This document shows positions 9,685 to 20,282 of a stretch of DNA of 64,000 bases, piece by piece. Position 1 is the first letter of the stretch. Every line of letters begins with the position of its first letter. The stretch comes from an uncultured Bacteroidales bacterium. GTDB lineage: Bacteria; Bacteroidota; Bacteroidia; Bacteroidales; FEN-979. The stretch is from assembly GCA_903945175.1 (NCBI GenBank), contig CAJAUM010000052.1, forward strand, positions 65,113 through 129,112, written 5' to 3'. The notes beneath the pieces were generated by a model. It was given only the letters and a program-made list of their open reading frames with translations. It searched no databases and was not told the DNA's origin. The translations under genes and the position numbers were made by a program.

Positions 9685-10239
9685 TTAATTCACCAGATGG
9701 ATGGCCGTAAGCAATTCTTTCCCGATCGCAATTGCTTTTTCATTTTCAGGGATAAGGGCATGGTGGCGTGCAGGAAGCGATTTTTCGAGTCCTTTGTGAA
9801 TGTATTCAGGGGCCACGAGGGGTTTGAGTTTGAGGAAACCTCCCAGCACGATCATGTTAAAGATTTTTGACAAACCGCGTTTCCCGGCCTCATCGGCTGC
9901 CTCGATTGAATAGATGTTGATGTCTTTCCGTTCGGGTAGGCGGGTAAGTCCGTTTGGGTCGAAAATAAGCAATCCGCCGGGTTTCACGGTCTTTTCAAAT
10001 TTATCCATCGACTGCTGGTTCAGGATGATAGCCGTATCAAAGGAATTTAAGATGGGGGAACTGATGCGTTCATCGCTGATGATCACCGTTACATTGGCTG
10101 TTCCGCCGCGCATTTCGGGCCCATAGGAAGGCATCCAGCTCACCTCTTTATTTTGCATAACACCCGAATAGGCAAGAATTTTACCCATGGAAAGGACACC
10201 TTGTCCTCCAAATCCTGCGATGATAATTTCTTCAGTCAT
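9685..10239 (-). CDS. 2-oxoacid:ferredoxin oxidoreductase gamma subunit
   Basis: The 184-residue protein has the gamma-subunit hallmarks AGFGGQGVLSMGKIL near residue 8, SYGPEMRGG near 38 and ILNQQSMDKF near 71. It is the last gene of a four-gene set (delta ferredoxin, alpha, beta, gamma) for a second 2-oxoacid:ferredoxin oxidoreductase. The set resembles 2-oxoisovalerate (Vor) or 2-oxoglutarate (KorABCD) enzymes, and substrate choice is uncertain. It is separated from the beta gene by 77 bp filled with tandem repeats. Confidence 0.9.
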   Translation of the reverse strand: MTEEIIIAGFGGQGVLSMGKILAYSGVMQNKEVSWMPSYGPEMRGGTANVTVIISDERISSPILNSFDTAIILNQQSMDKFEKTVKPGGLLIFDPNGLTRLPERKDINIYSIEAADEAGKRGLSKIFNMIVLGGFLKLKPLVAPEYIHKGLEKSLPARHHALIPENEKAIAIGKELLTAIHLVN

Positions 10240-10280
10240 TTCGATTTTCGATTTACGATGTACGACTTACGATTTGCGGT
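10239..10280. repeat. heptamer repeat, TTWCGAT type, inside the oxidoreductase operon
   Basis: Units TTTCGAT, TTTCGAT, TTACGAT, GTACGAC, TTACGAT and TTGCGGT run without a break. A second low-complexity stretch with CGCAGCCTTGCTGCCTCGC follows up to the beta-subunit stop codon. The repeats fill the whole space between the gamma and beta genes. Confidence 0.7.
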
Positions 10281-10316
10281 TTGGCTACTTTTATATTTCG
10301 CAGCCTTGCTGCCTCG

Positions 10317-11114
10317 CTATTTCGCTGCTTCAATTAATTTCCCATCCACCTTGATGTCGCCCAGTTGGTAGAATGGAAACATGTTTTCCTCCATCCATTT
10401 ATTGGACTGAACCGGGGTCATTTTCCAGCCGGAATTGCAGTTGGATACGATCTCGATAAAACACAATCCCTTGTTTTCCTTTTGGAGTTCAAAGGCTTTG
10501 CGTATGGCTTTCTTAGTTTTGCGCACATGGTTGGGTGTATGCACAGCCTGGCGGGTCACATAATATACGCCAGGCAATTGGGCTATCAGTTCTGTAATTT
10601 TAAGCGGATGGCCCATGGTGGGCACATCGCGTCCGTAAGGGGAGGTAGAGGAACGCATCCCTGGAAGCGTGGTTGGGGCCATCTGGCCCCCTGTCATCCC
10701 GTAAATCCCATTGTTTATAAAAATGATGGTGATATTTTCGCCACGGTTGCAGGCGTGGATGGTTTCCGCCGTGCCAATGGCTGCGAGGTCACCATCACCC
10801 TGGTAGGTGAAGACAAAGTGGTTTGGCCACATGCGTTTGATGGCAGTTGCCAGTGCAGGGGCACGTCCGTGGGCTGCTCCCAGCATATCGATGTTGAGAA
10901 AATCATAAGCAAGCACAGAACAGCCAACCGGGGAAACCCCGATGGTTTTTTCCTGAATGTCCATCTCCTCAATTACCTCCATGAGCATGCGATGGGCGGT
11001 ACCGTGGCCGCATCCCGGGCAGTAGCTCAGGGGCCGGTCGACCATCAGGTCGGTCTTTTTATAGACGATATTTTCAGGCTTACGTATTTCGGTTTTTACG
11101 AATTGTTCTTCCAT
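10317..11114 (-). CDS. 2-oxoacid:ferredoxin oxidoreductase beta subunit
   Basis: This 265-residue subunit binds thiamine diphosphate: YCPGCGHGTAHR near residue 32, GVSPVGCSVLAYDF near 59, GAAHGRAPALATAIKR near 79 and the TPP motif QGDGDLAAIG near 104 with IFINNGIYGMTGGQ. It converts a 2-oxoacid and CoA to the acyl-CoA while reducing ferredoxin, in complex with the neighbouring alpha, gamma and delta subunits. The start lies only two bases from the alpha stop codon, so the genes are tightly coupled. Confidence 0.93.
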   Translation of the reverse strand: MEEQFVKTEIRKPENIVYKKTDLMVDRPLSYCPGCGHGTAHRMLMEVIEEMDIQEKTIGVSPVGCSVLAYDFLNIDMLGAAHGRAPALATAIKRMWPNHFVFTYQGDGDLAAIGTAETIHACNRGENITIIFINNGIYGMTGGQMAPTTLPGMRSSTSPYGRDVPTMGHPLKITELIAQLPGVYYVTRQAVHTPNHVRKTKKAIRKAFELQKENKGLCFIEIVSNCNSGWKMTPVQSNKWMEENMFPFYQLGDIKVDGKLIEAAK

Positions 11115-11116
11115 AA

Positions 11117-12199
11117 CTAACCTCCGATAATTTTTTGTTCAAGCGCTTTTACTACTTCATCAGGGGAGGGGATGATCCCGCCGAAACGGCCGAAATGTTC
11201 GATCTTCACTTTACAGCCAACAGAAAGTTTGACATCTTCGATCATTTGTCCGGCATTCATTTCCACTACCAGGATTCCTTTTACGCGGTTACCTACATTT
11301 GACACCTCCATTGCCGGGAAGGGGAAGAGGGTGATGGGACGGAAAAGACCCACCCTGATGCCCTTTGCCCGTGCCAGATCGGTTGCTTTCTGGCAGATGC
11401 GCGCAGAGAGACCGAAGGCGACAAAAAGATACTCAGCATCTTCACACTGGATCTCTTCATAAAGCACCTCATTTCGCTCTATTTGCCTGTATTTTTCCTG
11501 AAGTTTCAGGTTTACCCGCTCCTGTCCTGCAGGATCGAGGTCAAGTGAAGTGATGATATTGTGGTTGCGTGTTTTTGGTCTGCCGTTTGAAGCCCATGGG
11601 CATTGTTTTATCACCTCTTCGTCAGTGCGCCGTGGGATCTGATCGAAAAGAACCACTTTTTCCATCATCTGCCCGATGGCACCATCAGACAGAATCATCA
11701 CAGGAGTGCGGTATTCAAAGGCTTTGTCAAATCCAAGTTTTACGTGATCACACATCTCCTGAACAGAAGCAGGGGCCAGGACAATCATTTTGTAGTCGCC
11801 ATGTCCGCCGCCTTTTACGGCCTGAAAATAGTCGGCCTGAGAGGGTTGAATGGTTCCCAGCCCCGGACCGCCACGCACAATGTTGACGATTAATGCCGGA
11901 AGTTCGGCGCCGGCAAGGTAGCTTATTCCTTCCTGCATAAGGCTGATTCCGGGACTCGACGAAGAGGTCAAGACCATTTTTCCTGTCCCGGCACCTCCAT
12001 AGAGCATATTTATTGAAGCCGTTTCGCTTTCTGCCTGAAGAACAACCATACCCGTTCTTTCAAATGGCTTTTCAGCCATCAGGTATTCCATCACTTCTGA
12101 TTGTGGTGTGATCGGGTACCCGAAATATCCGTCGCAGCCTGCGCGAATGGCGGCCTCGGCTATGGCTTCGTTGCCCTTCATTAATCTAAGTTCACCCAT
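11117..12199 (-). CDS. 2-oxoacid:ferredoxin oxidoreductase alpha subunit
   Basis: The 360-residue protein has the alpha-subunit segments GYFGYPITPQSEVMEYL near residue 24, QAESETASINMLYGGA near 55, SSSSPGISLMQEGISY near 78 and NIVRGGPGLGTIQPSQADY near 105. Unlike korA it lacks the gamma domain, which is encoded separately here. Automated schemes often name this type VorB, for 3-methyl-2-oxobutanoate. Aryl-pyruvate use (Ior-like) cannot be read from sequence alone. Confidence 0.92.
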   Translation of the reverse strand: MGELRLMKGNEAIAEAAIRAGCDGYFGYPITPQSEVMEYLMAEKPFERTGMVVLQAESETASINMLYGGAGTGKMVLTSSSSPGISLMQEGISYLAGAELPALIVNIVRGGPGLGTIQPSQADYFQAVKGGGHGDYKMIVLAPASVQEMCDHVKLGFDKAFEYRTPVMILSDGAIGQMMEKVVLFDQIPRRTDEEVIKQCPWASNGRPKTRNHNIITSLDLDPAGQERVNLKLQEKYRQIERNEVLYEEIQCEDAEYLFVAFGLSARICQKATDLARAKGIRVGLFRPITLFPFPAMEVSNVGNRVKGILVVEMNAGQMIEDVKLSVGCKVKIEHFGRFGGIIPSPDEVVKALEQKIIGG

Positions 12200-12218
12200 G
12201 GATTATCTATTTAAATTT

Positions 12219-12449
12219 TTAGTCAATCGCTACTTTTGCACGGTACACTGTGATCACCCCATCGGGGCAAACCAGGGCACAATTGGTGCAGCCGGTACAT
12301 TCGTTATTCACCTTCATCGCAAAATGGTAACCTTTGCTGTTCACTTCCTTCGACATTGCGATCACCGTCAAGGGACAAGCGGCAATGCATACTTCACAGC
12401 CTTTGCAGCGCTCGGTGTTGATCACGATATCACCTTTGATTTTAGCCAT
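12219..12449 (-). CDS. 2-oxoacid:ferredoxin oxidoreductase delta subunit (ferredoxin-like)
   Basis: This 76-residue protein has two [4Fe-4S] motifs, CKGCEVCIAACPLTVIAM and CTGCTNCALVCPDGVITV, flanked by INTERCKG and KVNNECTG. It is the integral ferredoxin subunit of the downstream oxidoreductase and heads its operon. A near-perfect palindrome lies 17 bp upstream. The 128-bp upstream gap shows no clear TAnnTTTG motif. Confidence 0.93.
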   Translation of the reverse strand: MAKIKGDIVINTERCKGCEVCIAACPLTVIAMSKEVNSKGYHFAMKVNNECTGCTNCALVCPDGVITVYRAKVAID

Positions 12450-13540: not shown

Positions 13541-14869
13541 TTAATAACTCTGAACCTGCGGGTGCTGATCCCTGAATGTTCTCAAACGAGCTTCCAGAAT
13601 TGGCAATTGTTCCCGTTTTACGAGCGATACGCAGGCCCGGATACCTTCGGTACGGTCGCTGCCGGTAATGGTCAGGGCAATGGCGCTGATGCCATAGTAG
13701 ATCAACTCTTCCAGCAATTCTTCACCGGAAAAGCCCGGATAGGCGAAGGTGAAATAAAACCCGTTTGCAATGGGTTCATCTTCGTCTTTATCGTAAACGA
13801 TTAGGAAGCCGTTGTCGATAAACATTTTTTTCATGAGCATGGCCTTTTCCCCATACTCCTTGACCACTGCGACAAAATCGTACGTGCCATCGTTTACGGC
13901 TTTTAACATGGCTGCAAGGCCATATTGGCTTGAGTGGGCGGTTCCGGCACTCAATGCATACACTGTCCCGTATATCAGGGCACGGCCGACGATGTTGGTC
14001 GAATAACACCATAACAGGTTTTCCGACTGCGTGTTAAAAAGCTTATTTGATACGATCATCAGTCCAATGCGCTGACCGGCGTAACTGAATATCTTTGAAC
14101 TTGAGATCAGCAGAACATAATTGTCAGTGTACTTTGCAACAGTTGGCTGGTATGGAGGTTGTCCGGGTTTGGAATAATCTTTCCGGAAATCCATGGCAAA
14201 ATAGGCCAGGTCTTCAATAATGATCACATTGTATGTGTTGGCCAGTTCTCCGATTATACTCAGCTCCTTATGGGTAAAGCAAATCCATGAAGGATTGTTC
14301 GGATTTGAATAGAGGATTGAATGAACATTCCCTTTTGAAAGATAGGATTCCAGTTTTTCACGCAATTTTTCCCCGCGGTAATTGTAAACGTCAAATGTTT
14401 CAAAATTTAAACCAAGCACCCTGTGCTGCTGGTGGTGTACAGGGAACCCTGGATCGATGAACAGGGTCGTATCTTTGTCCTTATCGATTTTCGAGAAGGT
14501 CAGGAACGCGGCAAATCCGCCCTGCATACTGCCTACTGTTGGTACACAGTTGGCCTCATCCACATCGACATCGAGGAAGAGTTTGACAAACCGTGAAGCC
14601 TCCTTCTTAAGTACCGGTATGCCTTCGATATCAGGATAGATCGAAGCGACCCCACGCTGAAGCGCTTCAATTTCAGCCTGTACGCCGATTGGATTGGGGG
14701 CAAGACCCGGAACTCCCATCTCCATCCTTATAAACTTTTCGCCGGTCTCGCCTTCAATGCCATTGATTAACCGCTTTATTTCACGGATAGATGCTTTACC
14801 GATGCTCCGGATTTTACTGTTCTGAAAATGTTGTTGAACAACTTCATAATTGATGGGGGTATCTTTCAT
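13541..14869 (-). CDS. PLP-dependent aminotransferase, class I/II
   Basis: The 442-residue protein is a fold-type I aminotransferase. Visible family features are EMGVPGLAPNP near residue 50, YSNPNNPSWICF near 187, EDLAYFAMDFR near 220 and the PLP-binding lysine in LLISSSKIFSYAGQRIG near 259. It transfers amino groups between amino acids and 2-oxoacids. It lies 96 bp downstream of hpdA on the same strand, which makes an aromatic amino acid such as tyrosine an attractive but unproven substrate. ATG 14869 was preferred over an upstream in-frame start at 14914. Confidence 0.85.
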   Translation of the reverse strand: MKDTPINYEVVQQHFQNSKIRSIGKASIREIKRLINGIEGETGEKFIRMEMGVPGLAPNPIGVQAEIEALQRGVASIYPDIEGIPVLKKEASRFVKLFLDVDVDEANCVPTVGSMQGGFAAFLTFSKIDKDKDTTLFIDPGFPVHHQQHRVLGLNFETFDVYNYRGEKLREKLESYLSKGNVHSILYSNPNNPSWICFTHKELSIIGELANTYNVIIIEDLAYFAMDFRKDYSKPGQPPYQPTVAKYTDNYVLLISSSKIFSYAGQRIGLMIVSNKLFNTQSENLLWCYSTNIVGRALIYGTVYALSAGTAHSSQYGLAAMLKAVNDGTYDFVAVVKEYGEKAMLMKKMFIDNGFLIVYDKDEDEPIANGFYFTFAYPGFSGEELLEELIYYGISAIALTITGSDRTEGIRACVSLVKREQLPILEARLRTFRDQHPQVQSY

Positions 14870-14965
14870 AGCGGAGATGTGAAGGGGCATTGGTGAATAA
14901 AATAACAGGCACAAAATTGATTATTTATTTTCAATTTTCCAATGTTTTTATTGAATTAAGATACG

Positions 14966-15937
14966 TTAAAATGGGGTTTCGCTGCCGGTATAACATGTAA
15001 TCCCGAATGATGCGAACTGGTCTGCGATTTCCTGAAGTTCATCTTTTGCCGGAATGTTATAATCTGACGCCTGATATTTTTTTCCAAGGAGGTTGTATTT
15101 TTCCCGGCCCAGATGGTGGAGGGGAAGGAGATTGACCTCGTTCCGGCCTGTTGACAAAATAAACCGGGCCATTTCACTGATATTCCCTTTATCGTCATTG
15201 AACCCGGGAATTACAGGTAACCTGAAAATCAACCTTCCCTGGAATTCCTTGGCAATCCGGCGGGCATTCTCCAAAATAAGGGAGATGGGGGAGTGTGTAG
15301 AATGGTGAGATTGTGAAATAGTGAGATTGTGAAAAGAGGATTCATTGAATGTTTTCAAATCAAAAAAGATCCAGTCGATATAGGGTAAAGCTTTTTCATA
15401 ATTCTTCCAGGGGACATTCCCGCATGTTTCAATGGCCGTATGGATGTAGGCTTCGAAACAACGTTTCAGCAGGTTATAGGCGAATTCAGGTTGGGTGAAG
15501 GGTTCCCCTCCTGTGAGGGTGATGCCACCACCTGGGCCCCAGTATTGACGGTCGCGATTGATTGTTGCATAGAGATCCTCGATGGAAATTTCAAATCCTG
15601 CAATGTTCAGCGCCCCCGAACAACATGCCTTTGCGCAGTCGTAGGTGGTGCATTTTGCACAAGTTCCCCGATCGAATGTCAATGTGTTATTTTGCTCGTT
15701 TCTCGAAATGGAAATGGCCCCATGCGGGCAGCTTTTCATGCAAAGCCCGTCGAAGGTGCATTTTGAATTACGGTAAAGCGGTTCGGGGAAAAATGAGATT
15801 CCTTCAGGGTTGGAACACCAGGCACATGCAAGGGAACATCCTTTGAAAAAGATCAGTGTGCGACAACCTGGGCCGTCGTGTACCGAAAAGCCCTGGATGT
15901 CGAACAAATGACCTTTGGCTAATTTTGTTTGTACCAT
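14966..15937 (-). CDS. hpdA: glycyl-radical enzyme activase for 4-hydroxyphenylacetate decarboxylase
   Basis: The 323-residue protein is a radical SAM activase. The C-x3-C-x2-C motif lies in GCSLACAWC (Cys34, 38, 41), and a two-cluster ferredoxin insert follows with CTFDGLCMKSCPHGAI and CAKCTTYDCAKAC. Such activases use SAM and a reduced cluster to install the glycyl radical on the partner, here HpdB. The start overlaps the hpdC stop by 19 bp, which argues for coupled expression. Residues near 200-212 are encoded by an 8-base tandem repeat (15305-15336) that looks like a foreign in-frame insert between IFFDLKTFNES and LILENARRI. Confidence 0.9.
   Translation of the reverse strand: MVQTKLAKGHLFDIQGFSVHDGPGCRTLIFFKGCSLACAWCSNPEGISFFPEPLYRNSKCTFDGLCMKSCPHGAISISRNEQNNTLTFDRGTCAKCTTYDCAKACCSGALNIAGFEISIEDLYATINRDRQYWGPGGGITLTGGEPFTQPEFAYNLLKRCFEAYIHTAIETCGNVPWKNYEKALPYIDWIFFDLKTFNESSFHNLTISQSHHSTHSPISLILENARRIAKEFQGRLIFRLPVIPGFNDDKGNISEMARFILSTGRNEVNLLPLHHLGREKYNLLGKKYQASDYNIPAKDELQEIADQFASFGITCYTGSETPF
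15305..15336. repeat. octamer tandem repeat inside hpdA
   Basis: GTGAGATT, GTGAAATA, GTGAGATT, GTGAAAAG on the plus strand. It lies within the hpdA coding region in a surface-loop position and keeps the frame open. The same kind of short repeat is otherwise intergenic in this window. Confidence 0.75.
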
Positions 15938-16176
15938 TTGAAATCGGCACATTTGCTTGCAATCATATCTGGATAGGCCAAAGTGATTCCCATGCATTTT
16001 CCCAGGTAATCTTTTTCGACAGAATAGTTGGCGCAGAATCTGCATTTTGCAATTTTTTCCATCTTGTCGCACAAAGGACCATCGGGGCCGACGTGTTCTT
16101 TACTCAGTTTGCATATCCCCCTGAAAACATCAACCGGGAGGTAAAACTTACAGTCTTTACATGAATACTCTTCCAT
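15919..16176 (-). CDS. hpdC: 4-hydroxyphenylacetate decarboxylase small subunit
   Basis: This 85-residue protein matches HpdC, the small iron-sulfur subunit peculiar to aryl-acetate decarboxylases of the glycyl-radical class. Eight cysteines are placed as two sets of four: 6, 9, 22, 36 and 45, 48, 61, 76, enough for two [4Fe-4S] clusters. In the structurally known clostridial subunit the first ligand of cluster one is a histidine; here that position is cysteine (CKDC). The subunit is thought to support assembly and activity control of HpdB. Gene order hpdB-hpdC-hpdA is the same as in Clostridium. Confidence 0.88.
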   Translation of the reverse strand: MEEYSCKDCKFYLPVDVFRGICKLSKEHVGPDGPLCDKMEKIAKCRFCANYSVEKDYLGKCMGITLAYPDMIASKCADFKWYKQN

Positions 16177-16203
16177 ATTTATACTATATCTCGATTTCGA
16201 TTA

Positions 16204-16224
16204 CGCTGTTACCCTGTTACCTTT
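16204..16224. repeat. octamer repeat behind the hpdB stop codon
   Basis: On the hpdB coding strand the stop TAA is followed by AAAGG, TAACAGGG and TAACAGCG. Each unit begins with a stop codon. It fills most of the hpdB-hpdC gap. Confidence 0.7.
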
Positions 16225-18894
16225 TTACAACTCTTCATACTCCGTTCTTGCAATCACCTCATCCTGAATTTGTTTACCAAGTTCTACCCAATATTGTGTA
16301 AAACCGGCGACCCGGACGAGCAAACTTCTGAATTTATCAGGATCAGCCTGGGCCTGTTTGAGCATGCGGGAGTCAACAATGTTGAACTGAACATGAAAGC
16401 CACCCTTACGGAGATAGGCACGGATCAGCTCCAGGAATTTTCGTGATCCTTCGCGGCCTTTAACAACGGAAGGATGAATTTTCATGTTGAGCTGAGAATT
16501 TTGAGATTTTGCATGGTTCCAGCAGGTGGCTGAATTGAACAGGGCATAGGGCCCGTTTTTATCAGTACCAGGGTAAGCCGATACGGAACCGTCAGAGAAG
16601 GTTGTGCCGCTCAGTCGTCCGTCGGGACTGGCCAGCGTAACTGCTCCCATCGGACCGTGGGTGGATACGGAGATCTGGCATGCATACATGGGTTGATCGT
16701 AGAGCGAACGGTAATTGTGCGTCATATCACAAAACCAATCTTCCCAGTCTTTCATTATTTCGTCAACGAACTGATTGTCATTCCCGAATTTTGGTGCATC
16801 GAGGCTCTGGCGGTGAATTTTTTGCCAGTCACGATAATCTTCTGTGGGAACCTGATCGATTAAAGAGTAGGAGCCAGTTTCCTGTGCCGTTTTATAGCCG
16901 AAATTTGCCAGGAGCGCCTTCCGGTATTCATCCAGTGAATAGTTGTTTTCGGTAAACACATTCTGTTTAAGCGAACTCAGCGAATTCACCAGGTTGGCGG
17001 TACCACAGCTTTCAATGTTGAAGGTTGTATTATACCGGCAGCCCATTTGACCAATATCTTTGCCTTTTGCAAGGCAATCGGGCTTCAGCATTGAATTTAC
17101 TAGCGACGGCGAAATTTTCCGCCAGGCATCATGCTGAATGTTGTTTGTCAAGGTAAGTACATGGCAGGCCCTGCTGAAATAGACCTTAAAAGCCTGCCAT
17201 ATTTCGTCGTAGCTATTCAGTTTATATCCGTGTGAAGGAAAAACACGCTGGCCTGTGCGCATATCCATGCCATCGAACAGGGCCACTTCAAGCAATTTAG
17301 GAAGGTTGAGGAAGTGGACTCCCACACTGGTAGCCGGAGCAGAACCACCTGGTATCCAGTGAATTTCATTGTCAAGCTCCAGTGGCATCCAGCTTCCTGG
17401 CGATGTTTCGAGGCATCCCCCGATGGCCCAGGCCCGCGCCTCTTCCAGGGCCATGCCTTCATGGGCATAGTTTCCGATCAAAAATTCGAGGGCAACCTGG
17501 TTGTTCACCCACGCCGGGTAACCGGTCCCTATCTTCGTGCATTCAACCCCTTTGAGCAGGAATTCTTCCGGGAGTTTTTCATCATACAAAACCGAAAGCG
17601 TAGGTTGGGGGGTATCGCATGTTATTCCTGCTTCAAGGATCAGCATCTCCAGTTCGTTGGTGGCAGAGGTGCCATCTTTCAGCAATCCTCCGAGGCAAAG
17701 GTTGTTAAACGTGTTGCCTGACAGAACGCCACCCACCACCCCCATCGAGGCAAAGCAATCTATTTCAGTAAATTTAATGCGCATGCATTCGAGCAGTTCA
17801 AGACTCTTTTCGCGGTCGATGGAACCATTTTTCATGTCGCGCTGCCAGTATGGATAGAGCACTTGTCCAACGCGTCCGGGCGACAGCCCTGAAATGGCAT
17901 CTTCGTTCAATACGGCCACATGGAAAAGCCAAAGCACCTGAAGGGCTTCATGAAATGAACGCGGAGGTTTGGAGGAGATCCATTCAAGACGTTCGGCCAT
18001 CTCAAGGTATTCGGTTTTTTGTTTTTCTTGTTTTTCAATGGATGCGAGGAAGATCGCCTCCTCTGCATAATTTTTTACCCATTGTTTGATGCCTTCGAGC
18101 ATCAGGATGACAGCCTTGTAAAAATAGAGACGGTCCATTTCGGGATAGCCTGCCACATCGGCAATTCCCTCTTCACAATTCCGGATAATCCCATCAATAC
18201 CGAACTGCAGCGGGTAGTAATAATTCATTACTTCACGCCCCTGCGGAAGGGTATAGCCGGAGTCGAACATGCAGATCACCGAGCGCATCAGCGCCTCTTT
18301 TTCTTTGTATCCTGGAACCAGTTGTTCGTATTTATGGCCTACATCATCCACCGATTTGTCCTTCCATTTTCTGGCGACTTCAAGCATGATGGGTACCTCC
18401 TCAACGCGGAGACCAAATTTTCCTGCAATGGAGATTACCCTACCGGAACTTTTCGTGACGTTTCCGCCCCCTTTGCCCATGGTAGTAAAGGTATCGGCTG
18501 TAAGTTTCCCTGATTCCTGAGCCTCCATGTATAGTTTATCCTCCGCAGCCATAAAAAAGGCTTCAGAGAGCCAGGGCATTGGATAGGATCCGCGAAGGAA
18601 CGATGCTTTACCCATGGCAAGCAGTTCCCCGGGATAGATGGTTGGCGTAAGGTGTTCAAAACCGGATTTTAACGCCTCAGCGCGCCGGATTATGGGGATT
18701 TCACCTTCAAGTTCTTCCCACCTGCGGGTGTACCAATAGGGAAACTCCATGGAAACCGACGATTTTGTTTCAAAATAAAGTTCCCTGGCTTCATTTGCGC
18801 GAGGGGTGGGTTGCCGCTTGCCTTCGCGGGGAGAAACCTCTTTTCCCGGCTCGCAGCCATAATAATTGATATGGGATTGGGGATCGGTATTCAT
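16225..18894 (-). CDS. hpdB: 4-hydroxyphenylacetate decarboxylase catalytic subunit (glycyl-radical enzyme)
   Basis: The 889-residue protein is a glycyl-radical enzyme. The thiyl cysteine is Cys494 in GGCLETSPG and the radical glycine is Gly864 in VRVAGFTQYW. As I recall the clostridial HpdB numbering, its active-site residues Ser344, Cys503, Glu505, His536, Glu637 and Gly873 correspond with a constant offset of nine to Ser335, Cys494, Glu496, His527, Glu628 and Gly864 here, all conserved. The reaction is oxygen-sensitive decarboxylation of 4-hydroxyphenylacetate to p-cresol in the cytoplasm. Phenylacetate or indoleacetate decarboxylase is the main alternative, but Glu628 favours a 4-hydroxyl substrate. 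hpdC and hpdA follow; a TAACTTTG promoter motif lies 34 bp upstream. Confidence 0.87.
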   Translation of the reverse strand: MNTDPQSHINYYGCEPGKEVSPREGKRQPTPRANEARELYFETKSSVSMEFPYWYTRRWEELEGEIPIIRRAEALKSGFEHLTPTIYPGELLAMGKASFLRGSYPMPWLSEAFFMAAEDKLYMEAQESGKLTADTFTTMGKGGGNVTKSSGRVISIAGKFGLRVEEVPIMLEVARKWKDKSVDDVGHKYEQLVPGYKEKEALMRSVICMFDSGYTLPQGREVMNYYYPLQFGIDGIIRNCEEGIADVAGYPEMDRLYFYKAVILMLEGIKQWVKNYAEEAIFLASIEKQEKQKTEYLEMAERLEWISSKPPRSFHEALQVLWLFHVAVLNEDAISGLSPGRVGQVLYPYWQRDMKNGSIDREKSLELLECMRIKFTEIDCFASMGVVGGVLSGNTFNNLCLGGLLKDGTSATNELEMLILEAGITCDTPQPTLSVLYDEKLPEEFLLKGVECTKIGTGYPAWVNNQVALEFLIGNYAHEGMALEEARAWAIGGCLETSPGSWMPLELDNEIHWIPGGSAPATSVGVHFLNLPKLLEVALFDGMDMRTGQRVFPSHGYKLNSYDEIWQAFKVYFSRACHVLTLTNNIQHDAWRKISPSLVNSMLKPDCLAKGKDIGQMGCRYNTTFNIESCGTANLVNSLSSLKQNVFTENNYSLDEYRKALLANFGYKTAQETGSYSLIDQVPTEDYRDWQKIHRQSLDAPKFGNDNQFVDEIMKDWEDWFCDMTHNYRSLYDQPMYACQISVSTHGPMGAVTLASPDGRLSGTTFSDGSVSAYPGTDKNGPYALFNSATCWNHAKSQNSQLNMKIHPSVVKGREGSRKFLELIRAYLRKGGFHVQFNIVDSRMLKQAQADPDKFRSLLVRVAGFTQYWVELGKQIQDEVIARTEYEEL

Positions 18895-18977: not shown

Positions 18978-19691
18978 TCAGAGCCGTTTCATTTGCATCA
19001 TACTGGCCAGAGAAAGCAGGATGCCCAGGATAACGCTGTAAACTGCGGCTACCAGGATTCTGTATCCTTCAGGGAGCATGAAATTCAGAGTTTGGGCAGG
19101 TATCCAAAAAATCGGGATGGTCTTTTTAACGACAAAGTTCCAGAAGGTGAGCCAATCACCATCCTGGATATATTTACTTACCTGAACGGGGGTAAAAAAT
19201 CCCTTCAAGGTTCCGGAAGTATTCATGATGTGCATATCGGTTATTTTATGAAATGCCATGAAAACCGGTGCAAACAAAAGGTTCAGTGTGGTGCCGACTG
19301 CAAAGGCAGCCAGGAGTTTTATCCAGGTGAAGCCTGGTTGACGCAGAACATCGGCAGGATTTGCAGTAGGGAAAGAGACTCCAAGTGTTTTAAGCATGAT
19401 GGGGGCCCCCTCTCCGAAAATCACAAAAGCGACTTTAATGGTTACACCCAGAAAACCCCACACGAGGGCCCGCGGAAGAATCCCAAATCCCTTTTTGGTA
19501 TATACACCGGTACGCAGCCTCAATCCCAAACTTTCGCCAAAGGTTGCCAGAATGGCGAATTTGATGAAACTCAGCAGGTAGGCGTGGGATGCATTCAGTT
19601 GTTCGTAACCTTTAAATACAGGGGGAAATATAAAAAAAGGGAGCAAAACCAGAATGATCACTCCCAACACAATGATATCAGATCTCTTCAT
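18978..19691 (-). CDS. Mpv17/PMP22-like integral membrane protein
   Basis: The 237-residue protein has about four to five hydrophobic segments. Its C-terminal region (KKTIPIFWIPAQTLNFMLPE, followed by YRILVAAVYSVILGILLS) resembles the Mpv17/PMP22 signature of a W-P-x-x-N-F motif and a final membrane helix. Eukaryotic members form membrane channels; the function in bacteria is unknown. It stands 83 bp upstream of hpdB on the same strand and 30 bp downstream of yqgE. A role in moving an aromatic product is only a speculation from position. Confidence 0.5.
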   Translation of the reverse strand: MKRSDIIVLGVIILVLLPFFIFPPVFKGYEQLNASHAYLLSFIKFAILATFGESLGLRLRTGVYTKKGFGILPRALVWGFLGVTIKVAFVIFGEGAPIMLKTLGVSFPTANPADVLRQPGFTWIKLLAAFAVGTTLNLLFAPVFMAFHKITDMHIMNTSGTLKGFFTPVQVSKYIQDGDWLTFWNFVVKKTIPIFWIPAQTLNFMLPEGYRILVAAVYSVILGILLSLASMMQMKRL

Positions 19692-19721: not shown

Positions 19722-20282
19722 TCAGTTAAATGTAGGATCAGCGGGAAAGTTTGCCCAAATGGCGTAATCCTGTCCCATGTTTTTCAAGTAGTTGCTCCAG
19801 AGTGTTTCGGGATGGGCATTGATCACCTCACTGACGGTGGTTTGCGAAAGGACCCATGATTTTTCCTTCAGTTCGCGGTCAAGTTGGTTAGGAGACCATC
19901 CGGAATAACCAATGAAAAACCGGATTTCATCGGGCGTAATCTCCTTGCTTCTTAACATGGTTTTAATCACACCCAGGTCGCCACCCCAATAGAGGCCCTG
20001 CATGATGGGGACGCTGTTTTCTACCTCCTGACGTGTATGAATGAAAAAAATAGAGTCGGTTTTCACCGGGCCGCCAAGATATACGGGAAGATTGTATGCG
20101 GAAAAACCTTTGACAATATCTTTGAGTCTCGCTTCGATGGGTTTATTAATGATCACGCCAAATGTGCCTTCTTCGTTATGCTCGGCAAGCAGCACCACCG
20201 ACTGCCTGAAATAGAAATCGCGCAGTGACGGCTCAGAGATGAGGATGCTTCCCTGTTTTGGTTTTATGCGTTGTTTTTCCAT
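19722..20282 (-). CDS. YqgE/AlgH family protein
   Basis: This 186-residue protein matches the UPF0301/YqgE family: KPKQGSILISEPSLRDFYF near residue 8, EEGTFGVIINKP near 37, LGGPV near 70 and FFIGYSGWSPNQLDREL near 122. The family is widespread, and in Pseudomonas AlgH is linked to quorum-sensing traits, but its biochemical role is unclear. It diverges from murL with 61 bp between them. Confidence 0.88.
   Translation of the reverse strand: MEKQRIKPKQGSILISEPSLRDFYFRQSVVLLAEHNEEGTFGVIINKPIEARLKDIVKGFSAYNLPVYLGGPVKTDSIFFIHTRQEVENSVPIMQGLYWGGDLGVIKTMLRSKEITPDEIRFFIGYSGWSPNQLDRELKEKSWVLSQTTVSEVINAHPETLWSNYLKNMGQDYAIWANFPADPTFN

Follow-up and report, generated by a model that had tools for sequence, protein, structure and literature searches.

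A 4-hydroxyphenylacetate decarboxylase gene set with probable iron-ligand changes in its small subunit and activase in a family of uncultured Bacteroidota

The 64,000-nt stretch of contig CAJAUM010000052.1 analysed here (the window, meaning this whole stretch) derives from an uncultured Bacteroidales bacterium and carries hpdB, hpdC and hpdA, in this order and on the minus strand, the gene set of the p-cresol-forming glycyl-radical enzyme 4-hydroxyphenylacetate decarboxylase (HPAD). A preliminary description, made from the sequence alone, had already claimed all three open reading frames (ORFs) in this order, and both the ORF reading and the family models bear it out (Table 1). HpdB lies above the cut-off of the HPAD equivalog model NF033715 (1150 bits), as does HpdC for NF033716 (50 bits). 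Among solved structures, both proteins have their nearest sequence match in 2y8n, the Clostridium scatologenes enzyme, at 1019 bits for HpdB (2y8n_A) and at E=3.2e-5 for HpdC (2y8n_B). Alignment to 2Y8N also confirmed the active-site set proposed earlier, namely Ser335, Cys494, Glu496, His527, Glu628 and Gly864 (SCEHEG), identical to clostridial 344, 503, 505, 536, 637 and 873 at a constant offset of nine. By this alignment Gly864 would be the radical site, Cys494 would form the thiyl, and Glu628 would correspond to clostridial E637, the glutamate that binds the substrate hydroxyl. A further, distinct glycyl-radical enzyme, 813 aa long and 28% identical to HpdB, is encoded in the same genome (L002, G000:C89:18989-20764).

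Table 1. Coordinates of the HPAD gene set and its neighbours in the window
Feature	Position	Strand	Evidence
hpdB, HPAD catalytic glycyl-radical subunit, 889 aa	16225..18894	minus	NF033715 1440.7 bits; 52% identity to 2Y8N_A
hpdC, HPAD small subunit, 85 aa	15919..16176	minus	NF033716 61.0 bits; column table; AlphaFold2 model vs 2y8n_B
hpdA, radical-SAM activase (about 323 aa with ATG 15937 as the likely start)	14966..15937	minus	NF033717 best model; 59-HpdA alignment
Class I/II aminotransferase adjoining hpdA	13541..14914	minus	PF00155
Four-subunit 2-oxoacid:ferredoxin oxidoreductase, VOR type (delta-alpha-beta-gamma)	9685..12449	minus	alpha NF005507 530.9 bits, cut-off 399
237-aa membrane protein, landmark upstream of hpdB	18978..19691	minus	
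YqgE/AlgH protein, landmark upstream of hpdB	19722..20282	minus	

Of 76 large subunits placed in a quick tree, 71 make up the part comprising HPAD and indoleacetate decarboxylase (IAD); there the window HpdB falls inside a 70-row HPAD clade that is split from the single IAD row, itself a long branch, with an SH-aLRT support of 100. The HPAD clade divides into 29 rows mostly from Firmicutes (with three Bacteroidia) and 41 rows, most of which bear the titles Bacteroidales, Bacteroidetes or Bacteroidia and a few Elusimicrobia, archaea, Ignavibacteria or Alphaproteobacteria; the window HpdB belongs to a clade of mostly environmental Bacteroidota. A bootstrap tree of 54 hand-chosen rows gave the window's 23-row clade a support of 99/98, the deepest HPAD forks not being firm. 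At the position of Glu628 the IAD row has Leu, as does OsIAD (Leu616) in the excerpted PMC6181972, while the window keeps Glu. Placement with indoleacetate decarboxylase, which the preliminary description had singled out as speaking against its own assignment, is therefore not what the quick tree and the active site indicate.

Related enzymes acting on indoleacetate or phenylacetate are known (excerpts of PMC6181972 and PMC13285125), and the IAD model NF033718 also matches HpdB, at 746.9 bits, albeit far under its cut-off of 1100. That this glycyl-radical arylacetate decarboxylase acts mainly on something else, be it indoleacetate, phenylacetate or a broad range, nevertheless seems highly unlikely to us, because score, clade, small subunit and the Glu/His pair for the substrate hydroxyl all fit HPAD, whereas the IAD gene neighbourhoods in the excerpted PMC6181972 lack a small subunit.

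Several of the related records are of separate interest. In three Bacteroidia records (L087; L095, from horse faeces; and L101, Candidatus Limimorpha) the HPAD is of clostridial type and in the His form, and seems to have been acquired separately in Bacteroidota. HPAD-like hpdB genes of 66-68% identity occur on contigs titled as archaea (L053, L072 and L098; Methanomicrobiales, Thermoplasmata and Euryarchaeota), which are short and may be mis-binned. Finally, in Clostridium sp. OS1-26 (L103) a further glycyl-radical enzyme and a further activase are encoded upstream of the HPAD genes.

For HpdC and HpdA the preliminary description had the gene identities right and overlooked one change in each protein. 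HpdC, which the title of a 2004 paper reportedly calls essential for activity, does have the eight cysteines attributed to it (Cys6, 9, 22, 36, 45, 48, 61 and 76), but this is not the clostridial pattern, which comprises seven Cys and a His at the first of the eight positions. As in the clostridial structure, these positions would form two clusters, 6/9/22/36 and 45/48/61/76. The window's Cys6 aligns with clostridial His3. Among loci gathered by two peptide patterns (a list limited to 80, with 79 loci), 63 HpdC sequences were aligned; seven Cys are invariant in all 63, while at the first position 44 sequences have His, 19 have Cys and none has another residue, so that the histidine presumed to bind the N-terminal cluster in the clostridial form is replaced by Cys in the window and 18 further rows. 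Adding the fragment L091 brings the count to 44 His and 20 Cys among 64. This either/or strictness is as expected of an iron ligand, and the exchange takes two base changes (CAT versus TGT/TGC).

On the HpdB tree, parsimony places three changes in the HpdC state: in the window's clade, in L046 and in L062. Because the window's clade and L046 sit among His-type rows, His to Cys is the likely direction, whereas L062 branches deep and its change may have gone either way. Given the position of L046 among His-type rows, we also treat the Cys6 form as a variant inside the HPAD family rather than as outside its definition. The best of five AlphaFold2 models of the window HpdC (pLDDT 86.1, pTM 0.67; the other four 64-80) had 2y8n_B as its first structural match (TM 0.72, E 1.5e-7), the later matches being weak (a HiPIP at E 0.34, a MASS beta chain at E 0.39). 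The N-terminal [4Fe-4S] cluster of HpdC is probably held by four Cys in the window's lineage, instead of His and three Cys.

HpdA had been described as a protein of 368 aa starting from GTG 16072, which is too long, since its first 45 residues overlie hpdC out of frame. In six of the eight HpdA loci compared (all but the window and L032), the open frame extends hardly further upstream than the matching Met, and the start is likely the ATG listed in Table 1. In the 59 aligned HpdA sequences, the radical-SAM motif CX3CX2C is invariant, as are seven of the eight auxiliary Cys; an eight-Cys motif of this kind is given as the bearer of two auxiliary clusters in glycyl-radical activases in the excerpted PMC6181972. 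At the remaining position, where the first CxxCxxCxxxC has its second Cys, 38 sequences have Cys, 20 have Asp and one has Glu; of the 20, L062 is ambiguous in alignment, as a Cys is kept nearby. The window HpdA combines an intact CX3CX2C with a ferredoxin-like domain that has seven of the eight Cys, Asp standing for the remaining one, so that the first auxiliary motif reads CxxDxxCxxxC, an exchange that again takes two base changes.

CxxDxxCxxxC is the spacing of ferredoxins in which Asp binds iron. Its occurrence in HpdA suggests that its first auxiliary cluster is probably held by three Cys and Asp, instead of four Cys, in the window's lineage. With just three Cys retained in the motif, Asp might instead be no ligand at all, the first cluster being lost or of the [3Fe-4S] type and electrons passing via the second; this we consider somewhat doubtful, considering that none of the 59 sequences lacks any of these three Cys and that CxxCxxCxxxC is kept in all seven other glycyl-radical activases having the domain (nine compared, two without it).

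The two changes tend to occur together. Across 64 loci the HpdC/HpdA states are Cys/Asp in 18, His/Cys in 39, Cys/Cys in two, His/Asp in one and His/Glu in one, with three unread, and in the window's clade both changes coincide in 18 of the 18 loci where both are readable. Among 31 loci of the window's family, on contigs partly shared with the 64, 25 could be read, giving 23 Cys/Asp, two His/Cys (L020 and L021) and no mixed case; three further family genomes (G303, G309 and G319) are Cys/Asp. The co-occurrence of HpdC-Cys and HpdA-Asp is strong, yet it rests on few events. Genus g142 holds both forms, His/Cys in L021 (genome G315) and Cys/Asp in L168 and L174 (G355 and G356), and whole hpd operons may have been exchanged within it.

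A scan over all HpdB columns returned residue 131, where all 19 Cys-type rows, including both independent Cys cases, have Leu or Val and none of the 43 His-type rows does; three of the latter have Ile. When other row pairs were swapped for the two independent Cys cases, eight of 989 gave any such column. We regard residue 131 as a weak candidate for covariation; the corresponding scan of aligned HpdA found no column separating the two HpdC states.

Whether these substitutions matter is evenly balanced in our judgement. The clusters could be purely structural, with His/Cys and Cys/Asp interchangeable and both changes neutral: His-type and Cys-type HPADs exist within one family (two against 23 of the 25 loci read), the two states are sometimes unpaired, and the function of HpdC beyond soluble expression is called unknown in the excerpted PMC12358834, where a glycyl-radical-reducing role is proposed and called unconfirmed. 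Neutrality would, however, sit poorly with a position that admits His or Cys alone in 63 of 63 sequences despite the two-base exchange, and, more weakly given its origin in an all-column scan, with the way residue 131 tracks the HpdC state.

At E ≤ 1e-150, hpdB was found in 32 of the 43 genomes of the window's family (28 of them over the cut-off) and in six of its eight genera, and in 14 of the 19 genomes of the window's own genus. One genome scored as lacking it, G319, carries hpdC, hpdA and a truncated hpdB, of which the last 138 residues lie where the contig stops; because the gene is cut by this contig end, it is present in at least 33 of 43 genomes and seven of eight genera. Other absences may be assembly gaps too; in G300 the contig with the aminotransferase is just 6.7 kb long and bears no hpd gene. 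An evenly drawn set of 296 Bacteroidota genomes, the window's own included, contained four others that matched HpdB at E ≤ 1e-80, all at 31-33% identity, as expected of other glycyl-radical enzymes. HPAD is thus infrequent across the phylum sample but common in the window's family, and the earlier claim of HPAD in one Bacteroidota genome, though supported, was too narrow for what is a family-level trait.

The gene set mostly occupies one chromosomal site. In 15 loci that were assembled separately, YqgE is found upstream of hpdB, often with the membrane protein of about 237 aa in between, and in ten loci of the window's clade hpdA has the same aminotransferase on its downstream side, followed mostly by the VOR-type oxidoreductase. 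In five hpd-less relatives (G296, G298, G306, G308 and G318) these landmarks are kept but enclose no hpdBCA, three of the five having another gene, of 715-737 aa, at that place; judging from the flanks that were retrieved, the loci L037-L052 carry hpdBCA elsewhere. That the set is a contaminant of, or a recent import into, a binned genome is a thought invited by related records being mostly metagenome bins. We rejected it as exceedingly improbable on account of the shared site, the presence in so many family genomes and the position of the window within a 150-kb contig.

In genome G309, one contig (L029) bears hpdB by itself, followed by unrelated genes, and hpdC, hpdA and the aminotransferase are on another, which reflects either a rearrangement or an assembly error. 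Both L029 and L031 have ORFs of about 925 and 458 aa near hpdB. Six of the 79 loci are titled Lac Pavin, and other titles look like lake names.

Taken together, hpdBCA in the window is very probably a true HPAD with p-cresol as its product, bearing probable lineage-specific ligand changes and kept within one family. Several points weigh against this reading. The comparison tree contained one IAD row and no phenylacetate decarboxylase (PhdB). HpdA scores only 311.4 bits with NF033717, under the cut-off of 420 and just 13 bits ahead of the model for the IAD activase, with HpdA of the relatives G307 and G309 likewise below the cut-off, and its assignment consequently rests on gene order and the adjoining HPAD. 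The ligand role of His3 in 2Y8N is a presumed one, and the metal-ligand roles as a whole derive from alignment, the fold match to 2y8n_B and structural literature. The pairing has exceptions (L046 and L062, with Cys in both proteins, and L052, with His and Asp), stems mostly from one clade and involves few events, three changes in HpdC and two in HpdA. Proportions among the loci gathered by peptide patterns are no census. Lastly, purifying selection seems to act on all three genes, but the ratios of nonsynonymous to synonymous rates (dN/dS) are rough: of six relatives tried, dS was saturated throughout for two and in one further HpdC pair, and the remaining dS of 1.1-2.7 is high and near saturation, the resulting values being 0.03-0.04 for hpdB (four of the six), 0.06-0.14 for hpdC (three pairs) and 0.08-0.10 for hpdA.

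If the enzyme works as the HPAD mechanism is summarised in the excerpted PMC6181972, the radical-SAM activase HpdA would install a glycyl radical on Gly864 of HpdB, from which the radical would move to Cys494 as a thiyl. Cys494 and Glu496 would then oxidise 4-hydroxyphenylacetate in a proton-coupled manner while Glu628 and His527 hold and deprotonate the phenol group, and loss of CO2 would yield p-cresol. HpdC, a HiPIP-like subunit with two clusters, would be seated on HpdB, and 4-hydroxyphenylacetate would be imported or derived from tyrosine. We infer from the sequence p-cresol formation by this enzyme and organism, as well as iron binding by HpdC Cys6 and the HpdA Asp and any redox effect of either. 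Cys for His and Asp for Cys may shift the potentials of the two peripheral clusters. The gene set itself has been retained within one family of Bacteroidota, in most cases at a single place in the chromosome, although some members lack it.

An unlikely but more far-reaching proposal is that activase and small subunit were retuned together in one environmental Bacteroidota clade, the two exchanges altering the potentials of two [4Fe-4S] clusters so that radical installation and removal stay matched, for instance under fluctuating oxygen or sulfide; HpdC would then be a redox partner and not merely a solubility aid. At least three His/Cys changes, with one clade showing the activase change as well, provide natural variants for testing the redox work of the clusters.

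The genes downstream of hpd appear to be a neighbourhood of their own. The aminotransferase occurs in 40 of 41 genomes (own included), with or without hpd, as a core gene of the lineage, and alpha, beta and gamma of the VOR-type oxidoreductase, 2.5 kb downstream of hpd, are also present in the five hpd-less relatives. A functional tie between hpd and this block was rejected, since those relatives have the same block; it may supply the HPAD substrate even so. C. scatologenes feeds HPAD via HpdDEFG, a VOR-type HPP:ferredoxin oxidoreductase (PMC13285125, in excerpt), and, by analogy, the window's VOR-type enzyme is a possible source of 4-hydroxyphenylacetyl-CoA. A search of the genome for arylpyruvate oxidoreductases returned one IOR-alpha-like gene (533.8 bits, below the cut-off of 650.9), and ADP-forming acyl-CoA ligases and acyl kinases gave two and four matches, respectively. 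By eye, a 616-aa protein at 331-2181 of the window resembles a second 2-oxoacid:ferredoxin oxidoreductase alpha subunit in fused form.

Compared with known systems, we are dealing with a known enzyme family in a new ligand variant and a new host lineage, which extends the p-cresol gene set from clostridia to a family of uncultured Bacteroidota. The open-licence papers among the literature matches listed contained no description of HPAD in lake Bacteroidota or of a Cys-for-His HpdC. HpdBCA of C. scatologenes and C. carboxidivorans (2Y8N, 2YAJ) shares with the window the gene order, the subunit families, the six active-site residues and an activase with a ferredoxin-like insert, but the window HpdB is only 52% identical, its HpdC has Cys instead of His at the first position, its HpdA has Asp for Cys, and no acyl kinase (PF00871, HpdK family) was found on the window's contig. 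HpdDEFG, the four-subunit VOR-type enzyme near HPAD in C. scatologenes (excerpted PMC13285125), is a distant homologue of the window's VOR-type enzyme, whose alpha, beta and gamma subunits are 45, 51 and 38% identical to the genes upstream of HPAD in C. carboxidivorans (38-51% over three subunits of that counterpart), although the version in the window's lineage is present with or without hpd. Indoleacetate decarboxylase (NF033718; L106, Clostridium sp. OS1-26), a glycyl-radical decarboxylase and the sister of HPAD, shares 38% identity with HpdB and differs in having Leu for Glu628, a separate branch and, in the excerpted PMC6181972, no adjoining small subunit. A precedent by host is Tannerella forsythia, named for its HPAD (A0A1D3UC78) in the same excerpts and correctly cited in the preliminary description as an earlier case of HPAD in a Bacteroidota organism.

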